From: Vicinamibacteria bacterium
Lineage (GTDB): Bacteria > Acidobacteriota > Vicinamibacteria > Fen-336
Direction: 5' to 3'
Length of the DNA: 64,000 bases
NCBI GenBank assembly: GCA_025994075.1
Contig: JAMQGV010000017.1
Coordinates: 124,001-188,000, forward strand
Position 1 is the first letter of the stretch. Every line of letters begins with the position of its first letter. Under the pieces are notes generated by a model. The model worked only from the letters and a program-made list of their open reading frames with translations. It was not told the DNA's origin and made no database searches. Made by a program: the position numbers and the translations under genes. Below, piece after piece: positions 24,272-43,890 of this stretch.

Positions 24272-25965
<1,694 letters not shown>

Positions 25966-25968
25966 GTG

Positions 25969-27156
25969 CTACCCCCTCGCGACGGCGCCGGCTTCGCCGC
26001 CGGCCAGGATCGGGAACGTGCGCACCGCCCACAGGTAGAGGGCGATCTCCAGCGCGACGATGCCGAAGGTGATGAGAAGCTCCGGCACCGCGGGGAAGTA
26101 CGACCACTGCGGGCCCGGGTTGAACGCGATCCAGTAGGTGTTGATGCGGTACACGGTGCCGGCCAGCACCAGCATCAGCGCGGAGCGCACCTGGTACGCG
26201 GCCTCGGCGCGCCTCGCGTCGTTCGACAGCCACCACACGGGCAGCGCCGCCAGCGCCAGCTCGACCAGGAAGACGACTCCGATGGGCGAGGCCACCAGGC
26301 TGAGGTCGCCGGCGACGACCACCTCGAGCGCGCGGAACGCGAGCCAGAAGGCGGCGACGAAGAAGGCCACCCTGGACAGTTTCGCGAGCATCGCGTCCTC
26401 GCGCGGGCGGCCGAACTCGCGGGCCGACCACGAGGCCTCGAGCACCACCACCGCGTAGCCCATCACGATGCAGTTGACGAGGAACAGGAACGGCAGCCAC
26501 GGCGTGAACCACAGCGGGTGCAGCCGCGGGCCGGCCAGCAGCATCATGGTGCCGAGCGACGACTGGTGCATGGTCGGCAGCAGCATGCCGAGAGCCAGGA
26601 TCCAGACGAGCGCCTTGTCCATGAAGCGCAGGCCCGCTTCCGACAGCCGGCGCAGGCCGGCGTGGGCCCCGTCCTTCCACTTCTCGAAGGCCGCCGGCGA
26701 CAGCTCGACGAGCAGCACCGTGACGTAGGCGGCCACGCACAGCGCGACCTCGAGCTGCGGGGAGCCGCTCCAGCGCCAGAAGAAGACCGGCACCTTCCAC
26801 AGGTCCCAGTAGCGGCCGAGGTCGATCGTCACCGCCAGCACCGCCAGGCCGTAGCCGAGCAGGCTGGTCAGTACCGCGGGCCGCACCAGCGGGTGGTACT
26901 CGCCCTTGTTGAGCACGTAGACGAGCAGCGCCACCGCGTAGCCGCCGCAGCCGAGCGCCGTGCCGGTGACGACGTCGAACGCGATCCAGATCCCCCACGG
27001 GTAGCCGTCGTTGAGGTTGCTGACGGCGCCGATGCCGAACGCGAAGCGCCACAGCGCCGCGGCAGCGCCCAGCGCGACGAAGAAGAGCAGCTTGCGGAAG
27101 AACGGCGTCATCAGCTCGCCGCCGACGGGGGTGTGCACGACCGCGTGGGAGCTCAC
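25969..27156 (-). CDS. hybB: HybB/NrfD-type integral membrane subunit
   Basis: A 395-residue protein with about ten membrane helices, for example FFRKLLFFVALGAAAALWRF, AFDVVTGTALGCGGYAVALL and PWLPFLFLVNCIVMGYAVVV. Family features are GYPWGIWIAFDV near residue 50, LLPTMHQSSLG and the final YRINTYWIAFNPG region. NrfD-family subunits of Hyb hydrogenases exchange electrons with menaquinone and may couple this to proton movement. GTG 27156 overlaps the hybA stop (GTGA), fixing the start. It stands in place of a cytochrome b. Confidence 0.95.
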   Translation of the reverse strand: MSSHAVVHTPVGGELMTPFFRKLLFFVALGAAAALWRFAFGIGAVSNLNDGYPWGIWIAFDVVTGTALGCGGYAVALLVYVLNKGEYHPLVRPAVLTSLLGYGLAVLAVTIDLGRYWDLWKVPVFFWRWSGSPQLEVALCVAAYVTVLLVELSPAAFEKWKDGAHAGLRRLSEAGLRFMDKALVWILALGMLLPTMHQSSLGTMMLLAGPRLHPLWFTPWLPFLFLVNCIVMGYAVVVLEASWSAREFGRPREDAMLAKLSRVAFFVAAFWLAFRALEVVVAGDLSLVASPIGVVFLVELALAALPVWWLSNDARRAEAAYQVRSALMLVLAGTVYRINTYWIAFNPGPQWSYFPAVPELLITFGIVALEIALYLWAVRTFPILAGGEAGAVARG

Positions 27157-28091
27157 GACGGCACCCCCTCCCCGCCCGCGGGAGGCGCCGCGGCGCCGCG
27201 CCGGTTGCGCCACATCGCCACCGCCAGCGCGCCGTACAGCGCCACGGGGGCGACGAACCCCTTGTAGATCCCCTCCTGGATCGTGTACGCGACGTGCGGG
27301 ACGCCGCGCGCGCCCAGGTCGGGCAGGCCGATCAGCCCGAACGGCAGGTGGGACAGGTACAGCACCTGGGTGCCGCCGGCCTCGGTGAGCCCGTAGGCGC
27401 GGTTCTCGAAGTAGCGGCCCGGGTTCTGCTCGATGCGGCGGGCGGCCTCCGCGATCAGCTCCTCGCGGGTGCCGTAGACGACCGCCTCGCGCGGGCACAC
27501 CTCGCAGCAGGCCGGCCCTTCCCCGCTCGCGTAGCGGGTGAAGCCGCTTCTGTCCTTCGCCGCCTCGCCCTTGACGCGGTGCCGGCACAGCTCGCACTTG
27601 ACGATCTTCGGCACGGCCTTCTCGAACTCGAACTTGGCCACGCCGAACGGACAGGCCATCTGGCAGTAGCGGCAGCCGACGCAGTAGGAGGGGTCGTAGT
27701 GCACGACGCCCGTCTTCGGGTCCTTCTGCAGCGAGTGCAGCATGCAGGCGCTGGCGCAGGCCGGGTCGACGCAGTGCATGCACTGCGCCTTCACGTACGA
27801 CATGCGCGGGCCGTCCTTGTACAGCTTGATCACGTTCTTGGTGCGGGCGCCGAGGTCGACCGGGGCCAGGTGCAGGCCCGAGGGGTCGCGCTCCGGCTCC
27901 AGGCCGTTGGCCTGCTGGCAGGCGAATACGCACGCCTTGCAGCCGATGCAGCGCGTGGTGTCGTAGAGCATGCCCATGGCGCCGGGCGGCGCCACCTTCG
28001 GCTCGCGGGCCAGCGCCGGCGCCGCGGCGGCGGCGGCCGCGCAGCCGCCGCCCGCGAGCACCTTGAGCGCGGTCCGCCGCGAGGGCGTCAC
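27153..28091 (-). CDS. hybA: HybA-like four-cluster ferredoxin subunit of hydrogenase
   Basis: A 312-residue Tat-targeted (RRTALKVLAGG) electron-transfer subunit. Cysteine groups for four [4Fe-4S] clusters are visible: CIGCKACVFAC (about 47), CMHCVDPACASAC (about 102), CVGCRYCQMAC (about 137), CELC (about 166) and CCEVC (about 193). A C-terminal membrane helix (GFVAPVALYGALAVAMW) anchors it. It links the small subunit to HybB. GTG 28091 overlaps the stop of the small-subunit gene (GTGA). Confidence 0.96.
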   Translation of the reverse strand: MTPSRRTALKVLAGGGCAAAAAAAPALAREPKVAPPGAMGMLYDTTRCIGCKACVFACQQANGLEPERDPSGLHLAPVDLGARTKNVIKLYKDGPRMSYVKAQCMHCVDPACASACMLHSLQKDPKTGVVHYDPSYCVGCRYCQMACPFGVAKFEFEKAVPKIVKCELCRHRVKGEAAKDRSGFTRYASGEGPACCEVCPREAVVYGTREELIAEAARRIEQNPGRYFENRAYGLTEAGGTQVLYLSHLPFGLIGLPDLGARGVPHVAYTIQEGIYKGFVAPVALYGALAVAMWRNRRGAAAPPAGGEGVPS

Positions 28092-29224
28092 GAGTCGCCT
28101 CCTCCGCTCTCGCCGGCCGGCGGCTGCTTCGTCTCGTGCGCCTTCGCGAAGCGGTAACCCGCACCGAGCGCGGCGCCGGCCGCGAGCCCGGCGACGCCGG
28201 CGGCGATCGCGCCGACCTTGCCCTGCGGCGCGCCGACCGCCGGGTAGGTGTCGGGCGGCGTCGGCCGTTCGATGTCGACGGTGTCGTGCAGCGGGACCTT
28301 GAAGGCCAGCTTCTGCTCGGTGCAGCCGAAGCAGGGGTGGCCGAGGCCGATCGGCCAGGCGTCGGTGACCTCGCCGAAGTGCAGCGTCGAGCAGTTGGCG
28401 TGGGTCGCCGGGCCCTTGCAGCCGAGCTTGTAGAGGCAGTAGCCGAGGCGGTGGCCCTCGTCGCCGAACTGGTTCGCGAAGCGGCCGGCGTCGAAGTGGG
28501 CGCGGCGCGGGCAGTGTTCGTGGATCGTGCGGCCGTAGGCGAACTTCGGCCGGCCCAGCTCGTCGAGCTCGGGCAGCTTGCCGAGCGCCACGTACTGCAG
28601 CGCGGTGCCCAGGAAGATGTAGGGGTTGGCGGGGCAGCCGGGCAGCGTCACCACGGTCTTGCCCTTGAGGATCATCGGCGCGCCGGTCGCGCCCGTCGGG
28701 TTGGGCGGGGCCGAGGGGATGCCGCCCCACGAGGCGCACGAGCCGATCGCGATCACCGCGCCGGCCTTCGCCGCCACGTCGTTCAGCATGTCGACGGCGG
28801 TGCGGCCGCCGATCATGCAGTAGACGCCGCCGTCCTTCTCGGGGATCGCGCCTTCGACCACGAGCACGTACTTGCCGGCGTTGGCGGCCATCGCGTCCTT
28901 CAGGCACTTCTCGGCCTGGTGACCCGCGGCGGCGAGCAGCGTCTCGTGGTAGTCGAGCGAGACGAGGTCGAGGATCAGCTCCGCAATTCCGGGGTGCGAG
29001 GTGCGCAGCAGCGACTCGGTGCACCCGGTGCACTCCTGGAAGTGGAGCCAGATGACCGAGGGCTTCGCCCCCCTGGCGACCGCCTCGACCATCTTCGCGG
29101 CGGCGCTCTCGCCGAGCCCGATGGAGGCCGCGGCCATCGTGACGATCTGGACGAAGGAGCGCCGGTCGACACCCGCGTGCGCTCTCGCCGTCCCTGGCGT
29201 GGTTCCCCACAAGCCGACGCTCAT
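28088..29224 (-). CDS. hybO: NiFe hydrogenase group 1 small subunit
   Basis: A 378-residue Fe-S subunit with a Tat signal (DRRSFVQIVTM, residues 20-30). The proximal cluster motif is ECTGCTE (C65, C68), with GSCASWGG and PGCPANP supplying the rest. Medial and distal ligands lie in HEHCPRR, YCLYKLGCKG, THANC and HPCFGCTE. The proximal site has the ordinary four cysteines: ECTGC rather than the ECTCC of oxygen-tolerant group 1d enzymes, which suggests an oxygen-sensitive enzyme. A C-terminal hydrophobic helix (GAIAAGVAGLAAGAALGAGY) anchors it to the membrane. The ATG follows GGAGGTGGGGG. First gene of the hydrogenase operon. Confidence 0.97.
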   Translation of the reverse strand: MSVGLWGTTPGTARAHAGVDRRSFVQIVTMAAASIGLGESAAAKMVEAVARGAKPSVIWLHFQECTGCTESLLRTSHPGIAELILDLVSLDYHETLLAAAGHQAEKCLKDAMAANAGKYVLVVEGAIPEKDGGVYCMIGGRTAVDMLNDVAAKAGAVIAIGSCASWGGIPSAPPNPTGATGAPMILKGKTVVTLPGCPANPYIFLGTALQYVALGKLPELDELGRPKFAYGRTIHEHCPRRAHFDAGRFANQFGDEGHRLGYCLYKLGCKGPATHANCSTLHFGEVTDAWPIGLGHPCFGCTEQKLAFKVPLHDTVDIERPTPPDTYPAVGAPQGKVGAIAAGVAGLAAGAALGAGYRFAKAHETKQPPAGESGGGDS

Positions 29225-29563
29225 CCCCCACCTCCTGGACTACAAGCGGACGCCTCCCCGAGCTTCGGTGAACGACAGGGGCGAGGCAGGGGCGGGTCGC
29301 GGGGCCGGGAACACCCGGTCGAGAGCACCGGTCGCGTGCAAGCTCATCACGAGACCCCCTGTCCCTCGCGAAAGGGCACGGAGAGGAATTGGCCACTCCG
29401 TAGCAAGCCGCGGGCCAGACGAAAGGGTCCTTGCGGAGCCGGACTGTCGCGAAACTCCACAGCGCCACGCGCAAGGGGCGTGCTGGCCGCGGCATCGGTT
29501 GCGGCGGACTGGCGCAGAAATCACCAGCGGCGGCCGCCTCACCGTCGGCGTACCTTGGGCCCG
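29225..29563. promoter_or_regulatory. divergent hydrogenase/Rieske-like intergenic region
   Basis: This 339-bp gap separates the hydrogenase operon (minus) from the Rieske-like gene (plus). TACCTT (29551-29556) lies 7 nt before the plus-strand ATG and fits a leaderless -10. On the minus side there is a strong ribosome site but no clear promoter. No open frame with codon structure is recognised. Confidence 0.5.
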
Positions 29564-29962
29564 ATGAGTTCACGGCGAAGCGAGAGCTGCCAACGGCGGC
29601 AGGCCCTGAAGCTGCTCGGCGTGGCCGCGCTGTCGCTGACTCCCGGCTGCCGTCGCGATGGCGCGGCGGCCCCGGTCGCGCGCGTGCCGCTCGCCCACCT
29701 CGACGGCGGGCGGCGGGTCGTGGTCGCGCTCGGCGACGATCGCGTCGAGGTGTCGCGCACGGCGAGCGGGCTGGTGGCGCGCTCGCTCGTGTGCACCCAC
29801 CAGGGCTGCATCGTCGCCTGGCAGGAGGTGGAGCGGCAGTACAAGTGCCCCTGCCAGGGCGGCTCCTTCGACGCCGAAGGCCGCCCGCTGATGGGACCGG
29901 TGTCCGTGCCGCTGCCGCTGCGCCCGGTGCGGATCGAGGGCGACGAGGCCGTCGTCGGCTGA
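29564..29962 (+). CDS. Rieske-like lipoprotein with Gln in place of the second His ligand
   Basis: A 132-residue exported protein: twin-arginine-like RRQALKLLG and lipobox LTPGC at the N-terminus. The Rieske fold is clear, with CTHQGC (about residues 85-90) and a second loop CPCQGGSF. The last His of the CPCHG motif is Gln (codon CAG). The two structural cysteines are kept. With only two Cys and one His, cluster ligation must differ from a true Rieske centre or be lost. It is divergent from the hydrogenase operon, which contains a second Rieske protein with a normal motif. It may be an assembly or regulatory relative. Confidence 0.88.
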   Translation: MSSRRSESCQRRQALKLLGVAALSLTPGCRRDGAAAPVARVPLAHLDGGRRVVVALGDDRVEVSRTASGLVARSLVCTHQGCIVAWQEVERQYKCPCQGGSFDAEGRPLMGPVSVPLPLRPVRIEGDEAVVG

Positions 29963-30003
29963 GGCTCGTGTCGAGCGTCACCGGGGCTTCACGGGCCGGG
30001 TGC

Positions 30004-30009
30004 TAAGAT
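30004..30009 (+). promoter_or_regulatory. -10-like TAAGAT before the phosphatase gene
   Basis: TAAGAT ends 13 nt before ATG 30023; no ribosome site lies in between. A very short 5' leader (about 6 nt) is inferred. Confidence 0.35.
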
Positions 30010-30022
30010 CCGCGCCCTTCCC

Positions 30023-31237
30023 ATGGACACTCGCCTCGACGCCAAGCTCCTCTATCGCCGTCTCGACGCGCTGTTCGGCCGCCTCGACCGCGGGAAAGCG
30101 CAGCGCAAGGTGCTCGACTCGTTCCTCGAGGACGCGTTCGGCGCGCTGCGGGACGCGCTGCGGCTGCGGGCCGCCGCGCTGTACCGCGAGCGCCGCGACG
30201 ACTTCGAGCTGCAGAAGCTGGTCGGCGACCCGGGCGGGCGGCTCGCGGACAGCTTCGACCCGCTGCGCTCGCCGCTCACCGCGATCTTCCAGCACCGCGT
30301 CTACATCTTCGACGACCCGCTGGCCGAGTCTTCGCCCTACCGCCAGGGCCTGTTCCCGAACGCCGCCGCAGCCGGCCTGGTCGTCGGCGCGCGGCCCAAC
30401 CGTTCGGTGATGCTGTTCGTGCTCGACGAAGGCTGGCAGCGCGAGGAACTCGACTTCACCCTCAACACCGTGCGCTCGGCGCTGGGCTCGCGGCTGTGGG
30501 ACGAGCGGGTGCGCGGCAGCGTCAAGGAGGCGGCCCAGATCCAGCGCTCGCTGCTGGTCGAAGACCCTCCGAAATTCGCGGGCTACGAAATCGCCTGCCG
30601 CTCGGTCAATGCCGACGAGGTGGGCGGCGACTTCTACGACTTCATGCCGTACGGCGCGGAGATGCTCGGCGTCTCGATCGGCGACGCCTCGGGGCACGGC
30701 CTGCCGGCGGCGCTGGTGGTGCGCGACGTCGTCACCGGCCTGCGCATGGGCCTCGCCCGCGAGCTCAAGGTCAGCCACGTGTTCGAGACGCTGAACCGGG
30801 TGATCCACCGCTCGAACCTGTCGTCGCGCTTCGTCTCCGTCTTCTACGGCGAGCTCGAGCAGGACGGCAACCTGATCTACGTCAACGCGGGCCACCAGCC
30901 GCCGGTGGTGTTCGGCCCCGGCGGCGCGCAGCGCACGCTCGACGTCGGCGGCACGGTGATCGGGCCGCTGCCCGAGGCCCGCTTCCGCCGCGGCATCACC
31001 CACGTCGCCCCCGGCGAGGTGATCGTGATGTGCACCGACGGCATCCTCGAACGGCGCGGGCCCAGGGGCGAGTTCTTCGGCGAGGAGCGGGTCGCCGCGC
31101 TGGTGCGCGACTCGCTCGACCTCTCCGCCGACGCGCTGCTCGACCGCATCTTCTCCGCGACCGCCACCTGGGGCACGCCCCGCCCGTGGGAGGACGACGC
31201 GACGCTCGTGGTGGTGAAGCGGCTGCCGAAGTCCTAG
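30023..31237 (+). CDS. PP2C-type Ser/Thr phosphatase (RsbU/SpoIIE family) with GAF-like sensor
   Basis: A 404-residue cytoplasmic signalling protein. Residues about 25-165 resemble a GAF-type sensor, and a coiled linker with AAQIQRSLL leads into the PPM/SpoIIE domain (about 185-400). The metal-binding motifs are DEVGGDFYDF, GDASGHGLPAAL, CTDGILE and WEDDATLVVV. Such proteins dephosphorylate anti-anti-sigma factors in partner-switching systems; no partner gene is adjacent. It converges with the outer membrane protein gene, overlapping by 4 bp. Confidence 0.93.
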   Translation: MDTRLDAKLLYRRLDALFGRLDRGKAQRKVLDSFLEDAFGALRDALRLRAAALYRERRDDFELQKLVGDPGGRLADSFDPLRSPLTAIFQHRVYIFDDPLAESSPYRQGLFPNAAAAGLVVGARPNRSVMLFVLDEGWQREELDFTLNTVRSALGSRLWDERVRGSVKEAAQIQRSLLVEDPPKFAGYEIACRSVNADEVGGDFYDFMPYGAEMLGVSIGDASGHGLPAALVVRDVVTGLRMGLARELKVSHVFETLNRVIHRSNLSSRFVSVFYGELEQDGNLIYVNAGHQPPVVFGPGGAQRTLDVGGTVIGPLPEARFRRGITHVAPGEVIVMCTDGILERRGPRGEFFGEERVAALVRDSLDLSADALLDRIFSATATWGTPRPWEDDATLVVVKRLPKS

Positions 31238-32613
31238 AAGGCCTTCTTCAGCTTCTCCAGCAGCTTGTCGGCGTCGGTGAAGCGGTAGATCACCGAGAAC
31301 TTGAATCGCCACTCGTGGCTGGCGACGCGGCCGACGGCGTCGTGGGCGCGCGGCGACGGGCGCGGCTCGGAACCGAAGTAGGCGGTGGCCAGGTAGCTGT
31401 TCCACCCGTACTGCACCGCGAAGTCGACCTTGACGCGGTTGGTGTTGTAGCCCGAGCCCGCGGCCACGAACACGTAGTCCTGGGGATCGCGGGTGACCAC
31501 GTCGCGCGGTCCCTGCGGCTCGTAGGCGACGCCGAAGCGCAGCGGGATCACGCGGCCGTCGCGCGGAAACAGCTTCTCCACGCCGAGGTTCACGGACACC
31601 GTGTCGCGGGTGGCGCTCTCCGACAGCCGCAACCCGTCGAAGAAGCCGAGGTCGCCGACCCCGGGCGCGCCTTCGATCGCGAAGCGCGACCACGCGTCGC
31701 GGGTCAGGTCGAGGGCGACCGTCCAGCCGCGTCCGGGGCGCACCGCCGTGCCCAGCGCGATCGACCACGGGACCCGCGCCTTCAACCCGCCCAGTTCCTC
31801 CCGGCGCGCCGGGAGCCGGCTCGACACGAACTCGCCGTACTGGGAGTAGTCGGCGCGGAACGCGCTCTTGACCACGGCCCCGAAACGCACCGCGCCGTGG
31901 TCGACGAGCAGGCCGGCCGTCACGTTGGCGCCGTCGAAGCGCTGGCCCTGGCGCGTGATCAGGAACGTGGTGGGGGCCGTCGCCGGCACGGGCGTCTGGG
32001 CGACCGAAGTGGAGAAGTCCCACTCGCCGCGCCACAGGCTGCCGCTGAGCCCCAGGTAGGTGCGGCGCGAGACGCGCACGGCTCCCGCCAGCGACCACAG
32101 GTCGATCTGGCCGCTGCCGCGCTCGTCGAACGAGATCTGCTGGTCCTCTCCGACCGCGCGGGTCGGGAAGCGCAGCACCTCCGCCTCGAAGCGGCCGCCG
32201 AACTGGTACTGGCGCCGCCAGTCGACCTGGAACGTGACGGGGCGCCCCCACAGCGTCGCCGGCACCGCGAGGCTCGCGAACTCCGGGTTGTTGCCGTTGA
32301 AGCGGGACGCGGAGGAGCTGTAGGCGTAGGCCCCGTCGGGGCTGCGGAATCCCTCCCGCGAGAAATCGCGGTCGAAGGTGCCGTTGACGAACGACAGCTC
32401 CGGCCGCCGCAACTGCGCGAGGCCCGCGGGATTCCACGAGGCGGCGGTGCCGTCGTCGGAGACCGCGACGAAGGCGTTGGCCATGCCCGCCGCCCGCGCG
32501 CCCGAGCCGGTGCGGTTGAGCGAGCCGATCGACTGCGCCTCTGCGGCGACACCGGACAGGACGAAGGCCAGCACGGCGGCGAACCCGGGTCGGCCATGGC
32601 GAAGCAGGGGCAT
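31234..32613 (-). CDS. outer membrane beta-barrel transport protein (FadL/PorV-like)
   Basis: About 459 residues with a signal peptide (ending AAEAQ) and a mature N-terminus SIGSLNRTGSGARAAGMANA followed by VAVSDDGTAASWNPAGLA, which is characteristic of the OmpP1/FadL and PorV families (small plug region plus barrel). Alternating amphipathic strands fill the remainder and the C-terminus reads FKFSVIYRFTDADKL. The ATG at 32613 is preferred because TACGAT (32621-32626) ends 7 nt upstream; ATG 32622 is in frame. The probable role is uptake of hydrophobic compounds, or a secretion-associated barrel. Confidence 0.85.
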   Translation of the reverse strand: MPLLRHGRPGFAAVLAFVLSGVAAEAQSIGSLNRTGSGARAAGMANAFVAVSDDGTAASWNPAGLAQLRRPELSFVNGTFDRDFSREGFRSPDGAYAYSSSASRFNGNNPEFASLAVPATLWGRPVTFQVDWRRQYQFGGRFEAEVLRFPTRAVGEDQQISFDERGSGQIDLWSLAGAVRVSRRTYLGLSGSLWRGEWDFSTSVAQTPVPATAPTTFLITRQGQRFDGANVTAGLLVDHGAVRFGAVVKSAFRADYSQYGEFVSSRLPARREELGGLKARVPWSIALGTAVRPGRGWTVALDLTRDAWSRFAIEGAPGVGDLGFFDGLRLSESATRDTVSVNLGVEKLFPRDGRVIPLRFGVAYEPQGPRDVVTRDPQDYVFVAAGSGYNTNRVKVDFAVQYGWNSYLATAYFGSEPRPSPRAHDAVGRVASHEWRFKFSVIYRFTDADKLLEKLKKAF

Positions 32614-32620
32614 TGCCGGC

Positions 32621-32626
32621 ATCGTA
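32621..32626 (-). promoter_or_regulatory. -10-like TACGAT, leaderless outer membrane protein start
   Basis: The hexamer ends 7 nt before ATG 32613 on the minus strand. It overlaps the alternative ATG 32622, which argues for the downstream start. Confidence 0.4.
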
Positions 32627-32689
32627 CGTCCTCGCGCGCGGCCTCCCAAGCGGGGATGCAACCTGCGTCGGTGGCTGCTACGGTGGGGC

Positions 32690-34678
32690 ATGGCAGCCGT
32701 CCGCCGCAACCTCGCCGACCGGCGCCGCCTCGAGCGCGAGGCGGCGCGCCACGAGCGCGCCGGCAGCATCCCCGAGGCACTCGCCGCGCTGTCGCAACTC
32801 GTCGCGGCGGGGTTGGCCGACGGCGACCTGCTCAACCGCTGCGGCGACCTGCACCTGCGCGCCGGCGCGCACGCCGAGGCGATGCGCTCCTGGCGCGCGG
32901 CCGCCGAGCGCCTGCGCGAGGACGGCTTCGTGCACAAGGCGCTGGCGGTGCTGCGCAAGGCGACGCGCCAGGACCCGGCCTGCGACGACGTGCTCGAACG
33001 GATCGCCGAGCTGCACGGCGAGCTGGGCCACGTGGTCGAGGCGCGGAGGCTGACCCTGGACCTGGCCCAGCGCGAGCTGGAGAAGGGGCTGGACCAGCGC
33101 GCCTTCGCGCTGCTGGAGCGGCTGCTCGCCGCCGATCCCGACCCCGCGACGCGCGAGACGCTGGCGCGCCTGTACGAGCAGCGCGGGCGCGGAACCGTCG
33201 CGGCCGGCCACTACCTGGTGCTCGGCAGCGAGCGTTCCGCTGCGGGCGACCTGCCTGGAGCCCGCGCGGCGCTCGAGCGTGCCTGGGAGCTGGCGCCGGC
33301 ACGCGACGACGTCGAAGCCGCGCTGGCCGACGCCTACGTGCGCCTCGGCCTTTGGGCGCAGGCGCTGCCGCTGGCGGCGCAACGCGTGTCGCGCTCCCCG
33401 GAGGCCGTTCCCGAGCTGCACCGGCTGGCCCGGGTGCAGGCGGAACTGGGCCAGGTCGCGACGGCGCGCGACACCTACGAGCGCCTGCTGGCGCTGCAGC
33501 CGGACGACGAGTGGCGCGCGCGCATCGCGCTGCTCCACGCCCGCGAGGGCGAGCCCGACCGCGCCCTGGCCGGCCTCGAGCTGGTGCTGGGGCGGATCGA
33601 GACCGGGGGCGGCCTGGCCCGCGCCATCGAGCTGCTCGAGGAGCTGCTGCGCGCGAGCCCCGACCACGTCCCCGGGCTGCTGCGGCTCGCCGCGCTCCAC
33701 AGCCGCGCCGGCCATCGCGACGCGTTCGCCCGCTGCTACGAGACGCTGCACCGCGTCCACGAGGCGCGTGGCGAAACCGAGCTGGCGCAGGCCGCCGCCA
33801 GGGTCCTCGCCGGAGCTCGCACCCGCCACCGCTTCGCCGGCGGCGGGTCGGCGGCGGAAGCGACGGACCTGCCGGAGGCGCCGGCGGCGCTCGACGCCGC
33901 GACGGAGCGCATCGCCTCGGCTTCCGGCCTGGTGATCGCCGCGGGCGCCGGGCTGAACCTCGACTACGGCTGGCCCGATTACCGCGACCGCGAGGCCTTC
34001 TGGAGCACCTTCCCCGAGTACCGCGAGCGCGGCCTCGCGCTCGAGGAACTGGCGCGGCCAGGCCGCTTCGAGCAGGACCCGGAGACCGCCTGGGCCTTCT
34101 ACGCGCGACGCCTGGTGCTGGCCCGCGCGCGGCGCCCCCACCCTGGCCTGCGCACGCTGGCGCGCTGGCGGGCGCTGGCGCCGGCCGGCGGCTTCGTCGT
34201 GACCTCCTGCGTCGAAGGCGAGTACGCCGCGGCGGGCTTCGACCCCGACCGCGTCGTGGAGTGCTGCGGCAACCTGCTCTGGAGCCAGTGCCCGCGCGAG
34301 TGCGGCGCCCCGCCTTTCCCGACGCCTTCGCGGATCACCCCCGCGCGGCCGCCGCGCTGCCCGGCGTGCGGCGCCGTGGCCCGCCCCAACGTGCTGCTGC
34401 ACGGCGACTGGGCGTGGGACATGAGCCGCCTCGAGGTCCAGGACGCGGCCTTCCGCGCGTGGCTGCGCGGGCGGCGCGGCGTGGTGGTGCTCGAGCTGGG
34501 CGAGACGCCGCGGCTGCCGGTGCTGCGCGCCTACGTGCGCCGGCTGGCGGAAGACGCGGGCGCATCGCTCGTGCGGATCTGCTCCCGCGACGCTTCGGTG
34601 CCGGAGGGAGGCGTCTCGGTGCCGATGTCGCCACGCCGCGCGATCGAGGCGATCAACGAGCGCCTGCGGGCGCGCTGA
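32690..34678 (+). CDS. TPR protein fused to a sirtuin-like domain lacking key catalytic residues
   Basis: 662 residues. Residues 1 to about 385 are tandem TPR-like helices (MRSWRAAAERLREDGFVHKA, then LEKGLDQRAFALLERLLAAD, and similar). The C-terminal 260 residues match a Sir2 subfamily: GAGLNLDYGWPDYRD (419-433), AFWSTFPEYRERGL, and ARPNVLLHGDWAWD. Zinc-type cysteines are kept (CPREC, CPAC). In related proteins the NAD site reads TSNVDG and the catalytic site ECHG; here they are TSCVEG (C507, E509) and ECCG (C526 for the catalytic His). Deacetylase activity is therefore doubtful; a binding role is possible. TACGGT lies 5 nt before the ATG. Confidence 0.85.
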   Translation: MAAVRRNLADRRRLEREAARHERAGSIPEALAALSQLVAAGLADGDLLNRCGDLHLRAGAHAEAMRSWRAAAERLREDGFVHKALAVLRKATRQDPACDDVLERIAELHGELGHVVEARRLTLDLAQRELEKGLDQRAFALLERLLAADPDPATRETLARLYEQRGRGTVAAGHYLVLGSERSAAGDLPGARAALERAWELAPARDDVEAALADAYVRLGLWAQALPLAAQRVSRSPEAVPELHRLARVQAELGQVATARDTYERLLALQPDDEWRARIALLHAREGEPDRALAGLELVLGRIETGGGLARAIELLEELLRASPDHVPGLLRLAALHSRAGHRDAFARCYETLHRVHEARGETELAQAAARVLAGARTRHRFAGGGSAAEATDLPEAPAALDAATERIASASGLVIAAGAGLNLDYGWPDYRDREAFWSTFPEYRERGLALEELARPGRFEQDPETAWAFYARRLVLARARRPHPGLRTLARWRALAPAGGFVVTSCVEGEYAAAGFDPDRVVECCGNLLWSQCPRECGAPPFPTPSRITPARPPRCPACGAVARPNVLLHGDWAWDMSRLEVQDAAFRAWLRGRRGVVVLELGETPRLPVLRAYVRRLAEDAGASLVRICSRDASVPEGGVSVPMSPRRAIEAINERLRAR

Positions 34679-37205
34679 TCGCGCCGGCCACCTCCAGGCT
34701 GCACGACGGCCCGGTCAAGTGAAGGTAGTCGAGCGCGGGCTGCCCGATCGGCGGACCGGGCGGCGCGTTCGGTGTGCCCGGTGCCGTCGTGGGGGTCGCT
34801 GCGCGGTCGACGAAGCGGCGCACGTCTTCGGCCAGCAGAGCGCGGTGGGCCGCCTGCAGCCGGTCTGCGCCTTCCGCGGCGGGCGTGGCCAGCCGGCGCA
34901 GCGCCTCCGTCGCCAGCGCCCGCACCTGCGGCATGCGCGCGCGCCCGGCGAGGGCCATCAGGCGTTCGGCCAGCACGCGTTCCAGCGCGCGGGCGATCTC
35001 GGCCTCGTAGGGCGAGCGCGCCGCGGCGCGCGGGGCCAGCAGCCGGTCGAGCACGTCCTCGAGGCCCGGCAGCGTCGGGTCGACGGCCTTCTGCTCGACG
35101 AGGCGGGCCGAGCGCTCGGCGTCGAGGACCTGGCCGAGCGTGAGGTTCGCGGCCACGACCGCGGGGCTCACGACGTCGAAGGTCGCGCCCGTGTAGCGCG
35201 GGAACAGCTCGCGGTGCGGTTCGTAGTCGAACGGGCGGGGCGGGATGCTCTTCACCACCGATTCCGGGAGCCGCAGCTCCGCCGGGTCCAGCGTGCGCAT
35301 CAGCGCGTCGAGCGCCGCCGCCTGCTCGGCGGCGGAAGCGGGCCGCGTCGGCGTGCGGCCGTCGCCGCGCACCGCGTACTCGTAGTGCTGGCCGCCCAGC
35401 ACCGAGGCCGCGGCCTCCACCTGGTAGCGGTGATGGAGGTAGAGCGGCACCAGCACCTCCTCGAGCGTCGCCAGCGGGCGCCCGCTGCGGATCGCCGACT
35501 CGCCGAAGCGCTCGAGCGCCGCGCGACGGACGTCCAGCATGCGCTGCAGCTCGGCCGCGGGATCGACGCCGTTCGACCACCAGTCGGCGCGGGGGTGGAC
35601 CTCGATGTCCTGGTTGGACAGGAAGCGCACGCCGCGCGCCTGGGCGTCGTCGAGGATCTTCTGCAGCGCCTTCGCACCGGCCGGGCCCTCGGGCTGCTCC
35701 GAGTAGCCCCACGCGATCGCCGTCTTGTCCCACTCGCCCATGCCGCGCGCGTACACCTTCGAGGCGTCGAACGACCCGTCGGGCTTCAGCTCGAGCAGCG
35801 GGTGCGGGTAGTCCATCACCGAGACGCGGCCGCGCTCGCTGTTCCAGTAGTTGTGGGCGAGGCCCAGGGTGTGGCCCACCTCGTGGGCCGAGAGCTGCTT
35901 GAGCCGGGCGAGCGCCCAGTCGGCGAGCAGCGGCGGGTTCTCGTCGCCCCTCGCGTAGGGCGCCAGCAGCCCTTCCGCGATCAGGTAGTCCTGCCGCACG
36001 CGGAGCGAGCCGAGGGTGACGACGCCCTTGACGATCTCGCCGGTGCGCGGGTCGATGATCGAGCCGCCCGTGCTCCAGCCGCGGGTCGAGCGGTGGACCC
36101 AGTTGATCACGTTGTAGCGCGCGTCCAGCGGGTGCACGTCGGGCGGGCGCATCTCCACGCGGTAGGCGTCGCGGAAGCCGGCGGCCTCGAACGCCTCGGC
36201 CCACCAGCGCGCGCCCTCGAGCAGCGCGCTGCGCACCGGCTCGGGAGTCCCGGGGTCGAGGTAGAACACGATCGGCTTGCGCACCGCGCTCGGCGCCGGG
36301 CCGGGATTCACCTTCTCGAGCCGGTGGCGCGCGATGAAGCGGCGCACGAGCGGCTCGTCGAGCCGCGCCGAGCGCTCCTGGTAGCGGATGCCGAAGTAGC
36401 CGCCGCGCGGGTCGAGCGCGCGGGGCTGGTAGCCCGGCCCCGGCAGCTCGATGAAGGAGTGGTGCACGCGCAGGCTGGCGGCCTCGCCGGTCGCCGCGAC
36501 GCTGCCGACGCCCTCGAAGAAGGCACCGCCTCCGAAGTCGGCCGCCGGGTCGGGGGCGGCGCCCCCCTGCGGCGGTCCCGCGGGCTGCTGCCGGACGAAG
36601 GTCAGCTCGACCTCGATCTCGGTGTTCTTCGGGAAGTTGAAGGTCCCCGCGCGGAACAGCGTGCTGCGCGATTCGTCGAAGCGATAGCTGCCCGGCCGCA
36701 GCCGCGAGGCGAGGTTCAGGTTGTCGCGCAGCAGGAAGTCGGTGGCGTCGACCAGCACGCGACCGTCGCTCTCGGCGGCGACCGCGAAGCCCCACAGCAC
36801 CGAGCGGGCGAAGGCGTCGCGCACCGCGCGCACCTCCTCGGGGTTGTCGCTGCTGGCCCGGAAGTCGTAGTTGGGCTGCACCAGCAGCAGCTTCGGGCCG
36901 ACGCGCTCGAAGAACACGATGCGCTCGCCGGCCAGCGCGCCGCGGTCGATGCCGATGTCGTTGGAGCCGAGCCCCGAGCCGAAGCCGTTCGCGTGCAGCA
37001 TCTCCTGCCCGAAGCGCGACACCTCGAGCAGCAGCCGGCCGCCTGCCTCGTCGAAGTACAGCGGCAGGAAGCCGTCCTGCTTCTGCAGGCCCGTCGTGCG
37101 CGCTTCGATCGTCGGCAACGGCACCTTCGGCGCCGGTTGCGCCGCGGCGCCGGCAGCGGCGAGGGTCACGATGGCGCAGGCGCAGGCGGTGCGGAGTGGG
37201 AGCAT
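34653..37205 (-). CDS. large secreted zinc-dependent metalloprotease (DUF5117/DUF4953-type)
   Basis: An 850-residue exported peptidase with signal peptide (ending AAGAAAQ). The N-terminal DUF5117-like region (LPLYFDEAGGRLLLEV, about 46-61) leads into a metzincin-like zinc site HEVGHTLGLAHN (about residue 438) followed by SVMDYPHP, a Met-turn-like segment. The C-terminal region is helical (ALDALMRTLDPAELRLPES). AGGAGG precedes the ATG, and TAGAAT (37230-37235) fits a -10. Relatives are common in Bacteroidetes and Acidobacteria; the substrate is unknown. The 3' end overlaps the convergent TPR-sirtuin gene by 26 bp. Confidence 0.92.
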   Translation of the reverse strand: MLPLRTACACAIVTLAAAGAAAQPAPKVPLPTIEARTTGLQKQDGFLPLYFDEAGGRLLLEVSRFGQEMLHANGFGSGLGSNDIGIDRGALAGERIVFFERVGPKLLLVQPNYDFRASSDNPEEVRAVRDAFARSVLWGFAVAAESDGRVLVDATDFLLRDNLNLASRLRPGSYRFDESRSTLFRAGTFNFPKNTEIEVELTFVRQQPAGPPQGGAAPDPAADFGGGAFFEGVGSVAATGEAASLRVHHSFIELPGPGYQPRALDPRGGYFGIRYQERSARLDEPLVRRFIARHRLEKVNPGPAPSAVRKPIVFYLDPGTPEPVRSALLEGARWWAEAFEAAGFRDAYRVEMRPPDVHPLDARYNVINWVHRSTRGWSTGGSIIDPRTGEIVKGVVTLGSLRVRQDYLIAEGLLAPYARGDENPPLLADWALARLKQLSAHEVGHTLGLAHNYWNSERGRVSVMDYPHPLLELKPDGSFDASKVYARGMGEWDKTAIAWGYSEQPEGPAGAKALQKILDDAQARGVRFLSNQDIEVHPRADWWSNGVDPAAELQRMLDVRRAALERFGESAIRSGRPLATLEEVLVPLYLHHRYQVEAAASVLGGQHYEYAVRGDGRTPTRPASAAEQAAALDALMRTLDPAELRLPESVVKSIPPRPFDYEPHRELFPRYTGATFDVVSPAVVAANLTLGQVLDAERSARLVEQKAVDPTLPGLEDVLDRLLAPRAAARSPYEAEIARALERVLAERLMALAGRARMPQVRALATEALRRLATPAAEGADRLQAAHRALLAEDVRRFVDRAATPTTAPGTPNAPPGPPIGQPALDYLHLTGPSCSLEVAGAISAPAGAR

Positions 37206-37259
37206 CGAAGCCTCCTGGGAGAGGCGCCGATTCTACGACGCGCCGCGCGGGCCGGGCGC

Positions 37260-39503
37260 CTACTCGATCAGCACCTGCTGCTGGGCCTCGACCCACAGCA
37301 CGTCGCGCAGCGCCGCGTGGCGCTGGAAGAACTCGGGGCCCTTCTCGCGCAGCCGCTCGCCGGTGAAGCCGCAGATCACCAGGTCCGCCTGGCCCGAGCG
37401 CTGCTCGACGAGGTGGTTGAAGTCGACCTGGTCGCCGGTGCCGATGATGCGCAGGCTCTTCTCGGTCATCGGCAGCCGACCGGCCGCGATCATCTCGCGC
37501 AGCCGCGTGCGCTCGGCGGCGACGCGGTCGTGGGGGAAGGCCGCGAAGATGCGCACCTCCGCCTGCTCCCAGTCGCGGTGGCCGAGCAGGATGTAGGCGA
37601 GCAGGATCATCAGGTTGGCGTTCTTGTAGTCGTGCCAGGTCAGCCAGATGTGGATCTCGCGGCGGTTCCCGAAGAAGTGGTCGCCGTGCCGCAGCACCAG
37701 GGAGTTCATCTGGGCCGCCGCCGCCATGCCGCAGCCCTGCGCGACCTCGGCGAGCACCTCCGCGTCGTCGTGGCGGGAGAACTCGAACAGCGCGGAGTTG
37801 TTGTCCATGCCCGACACGCCGGGGATCTGCAGGCTCTGCGCGAGCGCCGTCTGCAGCGACGGCGAGACCATGGTGTCGAGGTAGACGCCTTCCGCCGCCG
37901 CCTCGGAGAGCGCGATCAGCCGCGACAGCTCGCGGCGGCTCTGCTTGAAGCCCTCCGCGTCGAGCTGGCCCGGGATGTAGTGGAGGTAGGTGCCGAACCC
38001 GAAGCGGTGGCACAACCAGCCGAGGAAGCGCAGCGGCGCGCTGCGCGAGAAGGTGCGGCCGTCGACCATCACGACGCTCGGCCGCCACTCCACCCGCGAC
38101 GGGCGGCGGCGCCCGTGCTGGAGTCGCACCTGCAGGTGGCGGGTGGCCTGGGTCATGACGCCGAGGAAGATGGCCGCCAGGTCCGACTCGCCGCCGCGGG
38201 TGCTTTCGATCACGCGGTACAGCACGATCATCGCGACGATCGCCGCCAGCGCGTACAGCGGGTCCATCTGGAACATCAGGAACAGGCACATGCCCGCGCC
38301 GAGCAGGCTCAGCCACCACTTGGAGCGGAAGCTGGGGCGATAGCTGGGCCGGGCGGCGAAGTGCTCGAGCAGGCTGATCGCGCACAGCGCGCCGTAGGTC
38401 ACCATGAAGAACATCGAGATGATGCGGGCGACGAAGTCGACGCTGCCGGCCGCCACGAAGGCGAGGGCCAGCCCCGCGGTGACCAGGGTGGCGTTGCGCG
38501 GCTCGTTCTGGGGCCCGCGGCCGGCGGCGAGGAAGCCGTTGACGGCGGGCAGCGGCGCGACGCCGTCCGCAGCCAGCGCCTGCAGCGTGCGGGGGGCGAC
38601 CAGGATCGAGCCGAGCGCCGAGGAGATCGTGGCGCAGACGAGACCGATCGGCACGATCGGCCCCCACAGCGCGATCTGCGACATCACCAGCGGGTCGGCG
38701 GCCAGCACCTCGGGTGGCGCGGAGGCGGCCAGCTTGAACACCACCGCCACGTAGACGGCCATCCCGACCACGGTGGCGCCGAGGATGCCGAGCGGCAGCG
38801 AGCGGCGCGGGTTGGCGAGGTCGCCCGAGAGCCCGACGCCCGCGGTCATGCCGGTGAAGGCGGGGAACACGATCGCGAACACCAGCATGAACGGGTCCGC
38901 GGCGGGGATGGTCGCGGTCAGCGACACTCCTTCCGCGGCGCCGTTCACCGGCCCCCCCAGGAAGAACGCGAGCAGCGACGCCGCCAGCACGGCGACCACG
39001 AACGCCAGCGCCTTGACCCCGAGGTCGGCGCCGCGCGCGATCACCAGCGCGGCCAGCGCCACCGTCGCCGGCAGCGACACCATGCGGGGGTCGAACTCGA
39101 CGCCGGTCAGGGCCAGGAACGCCGGCCCCAGCGGCCGGAACGCCTCGGCCATCGCGATCGTGTAGAACGCCACCGAGATCGCCTGCGAGAGGTAGAGCGA
39201 GATGCCGATCGCGGCGCCGATCGTGGTGCCGAAGCTGCGCGAGATGATGAAGTACTCGCCGCCGCCTTCGACCCGGCGGTTGGTCGCGATCTCCGCGATC
39301 GCCAGCGCGGTCGGCAGCGTGACCATGTGGCCCAGCGCGATGATCAGCAGGGTGCCGAGCACCCCGACGTGGCCCACGGCGTAGCCGAAGCGCAGGAACA
39401 GCACCGCGCCGAGGATGGTGCTGATGCTGGCCAGGAACACCGGCATCGTGCCGAAGCCGTGGCCGCGCTCGGCGGGCTGCGACGGGGCGTGCGCCACCGA
39501 CAC
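37260..39503 (-). CDS. SLC12-like amino acid/cation-chloride permease with C-terminal cytosolic domain
   Basis: A 747-residue APC-superfamily membrane protein. About 12 helices occupy residues 15-430 (FLASISTILGAVLFLRFGYA at the start, then GMTAGVGLSGDLANPRRSLP). A C-terminal soluble region of about 300 residues follows, with REIHIWLTWHDYKNANLMIL and HRDWEQAEVRIFAAF. These resemble the cytosolic tail of eukaryotic Na-K-Cl/K-Cl cotransporters. Bacterial members are usually annotated amino acid permeases or Na-K-Cl cotransporters. GTG 39503 is 5 bp after the saccharopine-dehydrogenase-like gene, so amino acid or ion exchange tied to lysine catabolism is possible. The substrate is not determined. 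Confidence 0.87.
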   Translation of the reverse strand: MSVAHAPSQPAERGHGFGTMPVFLASISTILGAVLFLRFGYAVGHVGVLGTLLIIALGHMVTLPTALAIAEIATNRRVEGGGEYFIISRSFGTTIGAAIGISLYLSQAISVAFYTIAMAEAFRPLGPAFLALTGVEFDPRMVSLPATVALAALVIARGADLGVKALAFVVAVLAASLLAFFLGGPVNGAAEGVSLTATIPAADPFMLVFAIVFPAFTGMTAGVGLSGDLANPRRSLPLGILGATVVGMAVYVAVVFKLAASAPPEVLAADPLVMSQIALWGPIVPIGLVCATISSALGSILVAPRTLQALAADGVAPLPAVNGFLAAGRGPQNEPRNATLVTAGLALAFVAAGSVDFVARIISMFFMVTYGALCAISLLEHFAARPSYRPSFRSKWWLSLLGAGMCLFLMFQMDPLYALAAIVAMIVLYRVIESTRGGESDLAAIFLGVMTQATRHLQVRLQHGRRRPSRVEWRPSVVMVDGRTFSRSAPLRFLGWLCHRFGFGTYLHYIPGQLDAEGFKQSRRELSRLIALSEAAAEGVYLDTMVSPSLQTALAQSLQIPGVSGMDNNSALFEFSRHDDAEVLAEVAQGCGMAAAAQMNSLVLRHGDHFFGNRREIHIWLTWHDYKNANLMILLAYILLGHRDWEQAEVRIFAAFPHDRVAAERTRLREMIAAGRLPMTEKSLRIIGTGDQVDFNHLVEQRSGQADLVICGFTGERLREKGPEFFQRHAALRDVLWVEAQQQVLIE

Positions 39504-39508
39504 CCGGT

Positions 39509-40852
39509 TCAGCCCAGCGGGCCGGCGAAGCGCACGGCGCGCCGCTCGCGGAAGCCGAGGCCGAACTCGCCGAGCTCGGCGAGCACGGGACGATAGATGT
39601 CGGGCCGCAGCGGCACCTCGACACCCACCGCGTCGATCGCCCCTTCCAGGACCATGCGAGTGGCGACGGCCAGCGGCAGCGCCACGCAGCGCGACATCGC
39701 GGAGTCGCCCCACGGCTCGCCGGTCGCGACCAGCGTCGAGGTGATCGACTCGGTGCGGCCGTCGGGGAACACCGCCTCCGCCACGTGTTCGAGCACGACC
39801 ATGTCGCGCTCGCCGGGCCGGTAGCTCATCAGCTTCGCCAGCCGGCCGACGAACAGGTCGAGCGCGGCGCCGCGGGTGGCGGGCAACCGGCGGTCGGAGA
39901 GTAGCCCCGCCCACTCGAGGCGCGCGATCACCTCCGAGTCGGGAGACAGGCGCAGGTGGCGGGCCAGCCGCTCCACTCCCCCGCCCGCGCCGGGCGCCAC
40001 GAGCCGGAGCGTGAGATCGGCCCAGGTGGCGGCCGCGGGCCAGTCGCGCTCCTCGACGTCGAGCAGGCCGAGGTCGGCCGCCGCCTTCAGCGTCGCGCAC
40101 CAGCCCGGGTAGCGCAGCGTCGCCCGCAGCAGGCCTTCCACGTCGTGGAGCTCGTAGCCGTCGCGGTAGGCGAGGCTGTCGCGGTTGGGGTAGAGCTCGA
40201 ACACGCCGAGCCCCTCGACGGGGTGCGGCCAGCAGTGGGCGAACAGCTCCGGCCCCGGCACCTCGCGCACCTCTCCGCCGCGCAGGTAGCGCGCGGGGTT
40301 GCGCCCCGAGAGCAGCACCTGGCGCGGGAACCAGGAGAACTTGTAGCCCCAGGGGTTGTCGTTCGCGTCCGGCGCCGGGAACCCGCCGCAGCAGCTCAGG
40401 AAGCGGCGCACGCGGCCGCCCTGGGCGTGGACCTGGCGCACCAGGCGGATCGCCGACATGTGGTCGAGCCCGGGATCGAGCCCCATCTCGCTGAGCAGCA
40501 GCACGCCTTTCGCGCGGGCCGCGGCGTCCTGCTCCCGCAACTCGGGGGCGACGTAGGACGTGTTGAGCATCGAGATGCCGCGCTCGACGGCGAGCCGCGC
40601 GACCCGCGGGTTGTAGCTCGCCGGCAGCAGGCTGACCACGAGATCGGCCTCGGCGACGAGCGGTCGCAGCGCCGCTTCGTCCTCGACGTCGACGACCAGG
40701 GCGCGACCGCGGCCGTGTTCGGCCAGCAGCGGCTCCACCTTGCGGGTGTCGAGCGCGCCGACGATCAGGCGCACGTCGGTGCGCGGCAGCAGGTAGCGCA
40801 GCAGGGGCGGCGACATCATGCCGGCGCCGAGCACCAGCACGTTCCGGGGCAT
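39509..40852 (-). CDS. saccharopine dehydrogenase-like protein
   Basis: A 447-residue NAD(P)-dependent oxidoreductase. The Rossmann entry is NVLVLGAGMMSPPLLRYL (about 4-21), with DLVVSLLPASYNPRVA and SEMGLDPGLDHMSA (about 132) as in the saccharopine dehydrogenase half of lysine-degrading AASS proteins. The remainder holds the C-terminal substrate domain (NPWGYKFSWFPRQVLLSGRN). It begins 2 bp after the lysine-ketoglutarate reductase-like gene, so together they would convert lysine plus 2-oxoglutarate through saccharopine to glutamate and 2-aminoadipate semialdehyde. In eukaryotes the two are one fused protein. Confidence 0.9.
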   Translation of the reverse strand: MPRNVLVLGAGMMSPPLLRYLLPRTDVRLIVGALDTRKVEPLLAEHGRGRALVVDVEDEAALRPLVAEADLVVSLLPASYNPRVARLAVERGISMLNTSYVAPELREQDAAARAKGVLLLSEMGLDPGLDHMSAIRLVRQVHAQGGRVRRFLSCCGGFPAPDANDNPWGYKFSWFPRQVLLSGRNPARYLRGGEVREVPGPELFAHCWPHPVEGLGVFELYPNRDSLAYRDGYELHDVEGLLRATLRYPGWCATLKAAADLGLLDVEERDWPAAATWADLTLRLVAPGAGGGVERLARHLRLSPDSEVIARLEWAGLLSDRRLPATRGAALDLFVGRLAKLMSYRPGERDMVVLEHVAEAVFPDGRTESITSTLVATGEPWGDSAMSRCVALPLAVATRMVLEGAIDAVGVEVPLRPDIYRPVLAELGEFGLGFRERRAVRFAGPLG

Positions 40853-40854
40853 GT

Positions 40855-42171
40855 TCAGACTCCGCGCAGGGCCGACTCCAGGTAACGATACTCCGGCGCC
40901 AGCTCGCCGCGGTGGGCGACCACGGCGCGCCGCAGCTCCACCGGCAGGTCGAGCTCCGCCAGCGGGCGGCTCCAGTCGCAGCGCGCCAGCTTGGGCACGA
41001 AGCGCAGCAGCGAGTCGCCGAAGTGCTCCGAGGCCTCGCGCGGCAGCTCGCACGGCAGGTTGTCCACGGCCATCACGACGGGGCCCGGACCTTCGACGCC
41101 GGGGCGGTCCGATCCCGCGACCGGGTCGTAGACGTAGACCGGGTCGCCCGGGTCGGTGGCGCGCACGTTGGCCTCGATCGAGCCGTCGACGTCGCAGGTG
41201 ATGTCGCCGATCACGCGCAGCTTGGGCTGGCCTTCGCCGCGCGACCACAGCGCCCGCAGCATCTCGCGGGTGACCAGCCGCGGCTGGGCCGGGTCCCAGT
41301 AGACGCCGTTGACCAGCACCGTGACGTGCGGCAGCAGCACCTCGAGCGCGCTCTCGTAGCGGTCGGGGTGGGCCTGCAGCTCCGCCGCGTCGAAGCCGCC
41401 GTCCAGCCGCCGCCGGAAGCGCTGGGCGCGCCCGAGCACGGTGCGGAACAGCACGTGGCGCGGACGGTCGCGGTCCTCGGGCAGGGCCGCCAGTGCCTCG
41501 GGCTCCAGGTTCTCGAACGGCAGCCGCTCGAACACCTCCTGGGCGCCCTGCGACACGTTGCCCGAGCCGGTGAAGGCGAACGCGACGGGGCGCAGCCCGG
41601 TCGGCAGCCCGCGCTTGCGGATCCGCTCGCCGACGCGGGCGACGTGCTCCAGCGCCTCGTGCAGCGACGAGTAGTGATGGGCGAGGCGCAGTTCCTCGAA
41701 CGGCGTGCGGAAGCCCTCGACAGCCAGCCGCTGGCCCAGCGCCCACAGCGTGTCGAGCATCCCGGCGTACCCCGCGTGGCGGCCGAAGAAGATGATGCGG
41801 CGGCCGCGCGCGTCGACGATCGGCTCGTAGTCGACGAGCGTGCAGCCCTGCTCCAGGAAGCGCCGCAGCAGCGGCATGCCGGCGCTCTGGCCCTTGATGA
41901 CGTGCGAGAAGCAGACGTAGGTGCGGCCCGGCTGCACCTTCTCGACCGGGATCTCCTTGACCCCGAGCACGACGCGGCCGCCGCCGGTGTCGGGACCGAC
42001 GCTGGCCCCGGCCTCCGCGTAGTCCGCATCGGCGTAGACGCGCAGGGGCGAGGCCTCGACGTCGACCTCGACGTCGTGCTCGCGGACCAGCTCGGCGACG
42101 TGGTCCGGGGTCAGCGGCGCGCGCCGCTCCCAGCGGTTCTTGTCCTCGGCGCGGATGGCGATCGTGGCCAT
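40855..42171 (-). CDS. lysine-ketoglutarate reductase (saccharopine-forming) domain protein
   Basis: A 438-residue protein corresponding to the N-terminal LKR half of AASS and related to alanine dehydrogenase. The start IAIRAEDKNRWERRAPLTPD matches the family opening. Later come YVCFSHVIKGQSAGMPLLRR (about 84), DYEPIVDARGRRIIFFGRHA (about 113) and the nucleotide loop FTGSGNVSQGAQEVF (about 196). AAAGGAGG before the ATG marks a good start. It is the first gene of the lysine catabolic unit with the saccharopine dehydrogenase-like and permease genes downstream. Confidence 0.92.
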   Translation of the reverse strand: MATIAIRAEDKNRWERRAPLTPDHVAELVREHDVEVDVEASPLRVYADADYAEAGASVGPDTGGGRVVLGVKEIPVEKVQPGRTYVCFSHVIKGQSAGMPLLRRFLEQGCTLVDYEPIVDARGRRIIFFGRHAGYAGMLDTLWALGQRLAVEGFRTPFEELRLAHHYSSLHEALEHVARVGERIRKRGLPTGLRPVAFAFTGSGNVSQGAQEVFERLPFENLEPEALAALPEDRDRPRHVLFRTVLGRAQRFRRRLDGGFDAAELQAHPDRYESALEVLLPHVTVLVNGVYWDPAQPRLVTREMLRALWSRGEGQPKLRVIGDITCDVDGSIEANVRATDPGDPVYVYDPVAGSDRPGVEGPGPVVMAVDNLPCELPREASEHFGDSLLRFVPKLARCDWSRPLAELDLPVELRRAVVAHRGELAPEYRYLESALRGV

Positions 42172-42241
42172 TTGCGTCCTCCTTTCCGGGGTCCTGTTCT
42201 TCGGGGAACGAGAGCGGCGCCGCGCGCCGCCGCGGGGTCGC

Positions 42242-43783: not shown

Positions 43784-43842
43784 GGTGCAGACGGCGAGCG
43801 CGTGGCGGGGGATCCGGGCCTCCTTTCGTTTGTACTCATATC

Positions 43843-43890
43843 ATTTTAACCCGGGCGGCCGCCCGGCGCTCCCCGGCCTATAGTCGGCGC
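43843..43890. promoter_or_regulatory. divergent promoters flanking a 16-bp palindrome
   Basis: The minus strand has TAAAAT (43843-43848) about 18 nt before the AAGGAGG of the MscS gene. The plus strand has TATAGT (43879-43884) ending 6 nt before GTG 43891, a leaderless arrangement. CCGGGCGG/CCGCCCGG (43851-43866) is a perfect palindrome between the two and contains a NotI site; it lies where one factor could control both genes. The A+T-rich patch at 43825-43850 stands out in this GC-rich region. Confidence 0.5.

Follow-up and report, generated by a model that had tools for sequence, protein, structure and literature searches.

Class M sirtuins, which include SirTM, are ADP-ribosylating sirtuins (Rack et al. 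2015; PMC4518038). Mutation of Asn118 of SirTM, or of Gln137 at the position of the catalytic His, abolishes most of its activity, and ADP-ribosylation in class M depends on the Asn as well as on the residue that occupies the His position (PMC4518038). In the FAM118 sirtuins, the Asn mutants were termed catalytically inactive for NAD depletion, and the SIR2_2/FAM118 branch contains sirtuins with extra domains, TPR among them, which means that a TPR-sirtuin fusion alone is not new (PMC12700824). From the results with the Asn mutants of SirTM and FAM118, it follows that sirtuins other than deacylases need the Asn as well. So far as is known, nearly all described sirtuins retain both the catalytic Asn and the catalytic His, and SirTM, which lacks the His, still has the Asn. 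The gene described here lies in a window of 64,000 nucleotides, the whole stretch of DNA that was analysed, from an uncultured Acidobacteria bacterium. Judged from its sequence, it probably encodes a TPR adaptor that is restricted to the genus and carries a pseudo-sirtuin domain; this domain would have no NAD chemistry and would act as a binding or scaffold module. In a literature search that was far from complete, no paper on a sirtuin with TPR and pseudoenzyme character, no title or abstract describing a sirtuin pseudoenzyme, and no combination of a TPR fusion with the conserved loss of Asn, Asp, and His as a set were found.

The TPR-Sir2 fusion gene is located at 32690-34678 of the window on the plus strand, as a single gene with an ATG start and an open frame of 662 codons (662 amino acids). 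The GC content at codon positions 1, 2, and 3 was 0.83, 0.56, and 0.94, similar to that of the neighboring genes, and the long antisense frame had the shifted codon-position pattern typical of a shadow ORF. Another genome from this genus, that of Acidobacteria bacterium ACD2 (a MAG, WYBL01000140.1), encoded a full-length orthologue with 64% identity over residues 5-662. This orthologue was located by alignment of the Sir2 domain, an earlier whole-protein scan of the contigs with species-specific peptide patterns having matched nothing. The variation between the two genes was greatest at third codon positions, which, together with the codon-position GC, showed that the reading frame is real. 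The orthologue carried TSCVEGEY and ECCGN, that is, the same set of C507, E509, and C526 that is encoded here by TGC at 34208, GAA at 34214, and TGC at 34265. The source genome is a draft of 51 contigs and is 85% complete, as would suit an artefact of sequencing, assembly, or frame, but the gene is situated within a 350-kb contig and its codon-position composition and divergence match the frame. Sequencing error is excluded because the independent ACD2 genome has the same residue set, and we regard an artefact of any of these kinds as ruled out, its probability being close to nil.

The TPR-Sir2 gene and the FadL-like gene, which starts at 32622 on the minus strand, were divergently oriented with an intergenic stretch of 67 bases between them (32623-32689), and a convergent met-zincin gene overlapped the 3' end of the TPR-Sir2 gene by 26 bases. 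Pfam assigned the four flanking genes to SpoIIE, OMPP1/FadL, met-zincin, and amino acid permease, and no macrodomain or GcvH/lipoate gene was present among these four. No defence gene was found among the scanned neighbors, and the protein matched no defence-system model of PADLOC. The genes at 24608-29224 on the minus strand read by eye as a probable hydrogenase cluster (iron-sulfur protein, membrane subunit), with the putative small subunit at 28088-29224 on the same strand.

Residues 2-377 (32693-33820, plus strand) consisted of a TPR array matched by Pfam TPR_19 (E 2.3e-18) and TPR_14, with the repeats scoring above cut-off, in which the full-length AF2 model predicted 21 helices, from H2-23 to H363-377, forming about 10 TPR units with pLDDT mostly above 90. 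The array was followed by a flexible linker at residues 380-393 (33827-33868, plus strand; pLDDT below 50 in AF2) and by the sirtuin (Sir2) domain at residues 394-662 (33869-34675, plus strand). Pfam SIR2 (PF02146) matched residues 419-574 with 37.4 bits, above the curated cut-off of 24 (E 3.3e-9), and the domain modelled alone by AF2 gave a sirtuin fold with pLDDT 92.5 and pTM 0.89. In the full-length model (pLDDT 90.7) both halves were confident, but their relative orientation was not fixed because the pTM of the whole chain was 0.47. The best Foldseek matches of the Sir2 domain were SirTM 5a3a (E 4.6e-13, TM 0.74) and then Sir2-Af1 1ici, with many sirtuins at probability 1.00, and the best matches in a profile search were 4twi/1ici. 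The zinc cysteines of the small domain, C534, C538, C557, and C560 (34289-34369, plus strand), stood in invariant columns and were present in both orthologues, as in the Sir2 family. These results bore out the first-pass annotation in its open frame, coordinates, and residue numbering, in the TPR array ahead of a sirtuin domain that spans the C-terminus, and in the retention of the zinc cysteines. Among the signatures that it had listed, ARPN was present, while the “GFW-like” signature was AFW here (GFW in the stand-alone relatives) and “FGDW” was HGDW here and FGDW in the ACD2 orthologue.

The Sir2 domain and its ACD2 orthologue were aligned with 26 stand-alone relatives from Acidobacteriota, referred to here as the parents. 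These sirtuins of about 280 amino acids showed homology to the TPR-fused protein over the full length of the domain (33-45% identity), with the same zinc ribbon and equal spacing of the active-site motifs. Their sequences contained TSNVDGQFQxAGF, ECHGSIHHLQC, ARPNILMFGDW, and GAGTAVPTVR, and the parent motifs were AGAGMGVDSGLPDFRG, TSNVDGQF, EC(or V/I)HG, ARPN, GAGxxVPTVR, and INPRE. HMMER placed the parent N-V-D onto N99-V100-D101 of Sir2-Af1 and the H onto H116. The parent subfamily, sampled from Acidobacteriota and apparently uncharacterised, kept N/D/H and had GAGxxVP instead of the usual GTS motif. By profile, it was about equally near SirTM and Sir2-Af1. Its GAGTAVPT motif was the counterpart of the class M GVGx[NT]TP motif, since the C-terminal piece of the parent, a consensus-like query, aligned GAGTAVP onto GVGHTTP and RINP onto TLNH of SirTM 5a3a, weakly when taken alone (E = 0.011) and with 4e-25 for the full-length profile match. 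GAGxxVP resembles the class M motif, and the parent subfamily could bridge the classical and class M sirtuins.

Among the 88 columns that were at least 92% invariant among the parents, 56 were retained in both TPR-fused proteins, 24 were altered in both, and 8 were altered in one; in 20 of the 24, the two proteins had changed to the identical residue. The first NAD-binding loop (residues 418-433; 33941-33988, plus strand) was AGAGLNLDYGWPDYRD against AGAGMGVDSGLPDFRG in the parents, with AGAG, P429, D430, and R432 retained and with G423N, S426Y, L428W, F431Y, and G433D altered. In the nicotinamide pocket, C507-V-E509 (34208-34216, plus strand) replaced N-x-D (N507C, D509E), and E524-C525-C526-G527 (34259-34270, plus strand) replaced E-C-H-G, which placed Cys at the position of the catalytic His (H526C; H116 of Sir2-Af1). 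Every aligned parent kept the N, D, and H, and both TPR-fused proteins had the C, E, and C. The phosphate-binding motif GAGTAVPT was altered to G604-E-T-P-R-L-P-V (34499-34522, plus strand) by A605E and G606T, and residue 631 (34580-34582, plus strand), Cys here and Ser in ACD2, replaced the Asn of the parent RINP, which in SirTM (Asn258, within TLNH) contacts the adenine ribose (PMC4518038). F512Y and S528N were altered as well. Judged from these columns, the NAD site as a whole, not the catalytic corner alone, has been rebuilt. The first-pass annotation was correct in naming C507, E509, and C526, but its count of three altered positions was too low, and its suggestion that the protein may bind NAD was weakened by changes on the nicotinamide side (N507C, D509E, H526C, F431Y), in the GAG motif on the phosphate side (G606T), and at the adenine-ribose Asn (N631 to C/S). 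Residual nucleotide binding may persist, with the first GAG loop, D430, and R432 being retained.

The catalytic His (HG) and the Asn and Asp of N-x-D that mark a classical deacylase were absent in both orthologues, and the best NCBIfam deacylase model gave 88.3 bits against a cut-off of 243, which the stand-alone parents with intact N/D/H did not reach either. We infer the loss of NAD chemistry from these changes. By analogy, class M offers a counterpoint to a pseudo-enzyme, as it shows that a His-less sirtuin can be an active enzyme: SirTM, the nearest solved fold, is itself without the His and yet a transferase (PMC4518038). The TPR-Sir2 protein might accordingly be read as a His-independent NAD enzyme, such as a SirTM-like ADP-ribosyltransferase, in which C526 or E509 would take positioning or base roles; the substitution at E509 is conservative, and the protein still has GAG419-421, D430, and R432. 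We consider this unlikely, since SirTM needs Asn118 and keeps Asp120, Asn258, and GVGx[NT]TP (PMC4518038), at which positions this protein has C507, E509, C/S631, and GETPRLP, and since the four scanned flanking genes contained neither a macrodomain nor a GcvH/lipoate gene. The altered residues could also provide a new thiol or metal chemistry, in which C507, C526, C525, and E509 would form a redox-active pair of cysteines or bind a second metal, and a redox or metal switch or sensor would be relayed via the TPR arm. Two Cys do replace the Asn and the His, which in the known sirtuins both act at the nicotinamide ribose, and C507, E509, C525, and C526 are present in both orthologues; this proposal, which we hold to be quite unlikely, rests on two sequences, and C525 is not specific to them but is also found in most parent sequences.

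The TPR-Sir2 fusion was found in 2 of the 193 genomes examined for the class, and stand-alone parents were found in two others. In a phylum sample of 396 genomes, 25 further genomes besides the source genome gave matches, and all of their proteins were of the parent type. Homologues of the same architecture with HG and N-x-D, which would speak against the pseudo-enzyme reading of the first-pass annotation, were looked for, and none was found among the 193 class genomes and the 396-genome phylum sample. C526, C507, and E509 were conserved as a set, being identical in the sole other homologue of this architecture, that of ACD2. The source genome itself encoded two further sirtuins, one with TQNVDG and ELHG and the other with TQNVDG and DLHG. 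In a third species of the genus, the FadL-like gene directly adjoined the gene found at 43879 of the window, with 76 bases between them, and tblastn detected no trace of the TPR-Sir2 gene at this site. No relative was found on viral contigs; 11 plasmid records contained relatives below 60% identity, none nearer than 37%.

Selection on the gene was estimated by NG86 with bootstrap ranges between the orthologues of the source genome and ACD2. For the Sir2 half, the dN/dS was 0.50 (95% bounds 0.35-0.68); the TPR half gave 0.47 (0.37-0.62). The true values are probably lower, as NG86 tends to undercount synonymous substitutions in G+C-rich sequences. Purifying selection acts on the gene, which, with dN/dS of about 0.5 and therefore below 1, is not drifting or decaying as a pseudogene. 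A relaxed or decaying Sir2 half that is kept as an inert stabiliser, with the TPR half as the working part, would fit the long stem branch of the TPR-fused pair and a dN/dS above that of the neighbors (0.09 for the hydrogenase small subunit and 0.27 for the FadL-like gene). It is, however, improbable, because amino acid identity is higher in the Sir2 half (72%) than in the TPR half (61%), the 95% bound of the Sir2 dN/dS ends at 0.68, the zinc cysteines and AGAG are retained, and the altered sites are mostly identical in both proteins. A statistical test of whether the altered columns were better conserved than the rest gave only p = 0.10, and no weight is placed on it. The main weakness of the pseudo-sirtuin reading is that the variant rests on two sequences, and the three identical residues alone are unsurprising at 72% domain identity. 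With the C/E/C set in ACD2, N/D/H in all aligned stand-alone relatives, and purifying selection, these comparisons support the earlier suggestion of a pseudo-enzyme.

In the tree, the TPR-fused pair fell within the parents, close to two sequences that belong to one family, with moderate support that was not firm (86/94 and 95/61). The stem had 1.7 changes per site and the tips 0.26 and 0.17, which indicated a burst of change followed by relative stability. The dS was 0.44-0.70 in the TPR-Sir2 gene against 0.07-0.12 in the adjoining FadL-like and hydrogenase genes, and the nucleotide identity to ACD2 dropped from about 99% to 70-80% at the gene edge. Because of this higher dS and the step in identity, the genealogy of the gene is older than that of the flanking DNA, which is most simply explained by recombination. 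Divergence from ACD2 was mosaic over 25899-34685 of the window, with the hydrogenase and FadL-like genes 96-97% identical, the SpoIIE phosphatase 83%, and the TPR-Sir2 gene 68-77%, a pattern that suggests separate recombination events on either side of the FadL-like gene. ACD2 contained a segment of about 19.5 kb with coding-like ORFs (in the region 27400-47200 of its contig) that the window lacks; the insertion or loss falls precisely where the TPR-Sir2 gene has its 3' end (34685/34686).

In the pseudo-sirtuin reading, the fusion would have arisen when an SgmX-like TPR array was joined to a stand-alone sirtuin from the parent subfamily of Acidobacteriota. The NAD and catalytic site would then have been rebuilt in a burst (N to C, D to E, H to C, F to Y, the GAG-x-x-VP changes, and the loss of the adenine-ribose Asn), through which the sirtuin fold and zinc ribbon would have been kept. 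NAD cleavage by the Sir2 domain has most likely been lost. The domain would instead work as a scaffold or binding module, whose ligand might be an acyl-lysine peptide, a nucleotide-like compound, or a protein, and the TPR arm, tethered by the flexible linker, would recruit a partner; the choice of ligand and of partner is a matter of speculation. If this is true, a natural sirtuin without Asn, Asp, His, and further NAD contacts, with its fold under selection, would be a clear pseudo-sirtuin and would allow the role of the sirtuin fold to be probed without NAD chemistry.

The TPR half resembled the N-terminal repeats of SgmX-like TPR proteins, which act in type IV pili formation. One such protein in the source genome (61689-62792 of its own contig) had about 26% identity to it, and similar SgmX-like proteins occurred across the family. 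With 23.5 bits, the TPR-Sir2 protein did not reach the cut-off (1800) of the SgmX model NCBIfam NF052243, and a sirtuin takes the place of the C-terminal region of SgmX. With class M SirTM, the Sir2 domain shared a profile match along the whole domain and the absence of the catalytic His. Class M membership was nevertheless rejected, since the hallmark Gln is Cys526 here, the sites of Asn118, Asp120, Asn258, and GVGx[NT]TP all differ, and the neighbors are unrelated to the macrodomain and GcvH-L partners of SirTM (PMC4518038). The zinc-ribbon sirtuin fold is common to Sir2-Af1 and the SIRT5/CobB-type deacylases, but the catalytic Asn, Asp, and His of those enzymes are absent. The SIR2_2/FAM118 and antiphage sirtuins that have been studied cleave NAD via the Asn that the TPR-Sir2 protein has lost. 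Unlike the TPR-Sir2 protein, the stand-alone parents have no TPR array and keep the N, D, H, GAG, and INP, all of which it alters, and these parents with intact N/D/H would be matched controls for it.
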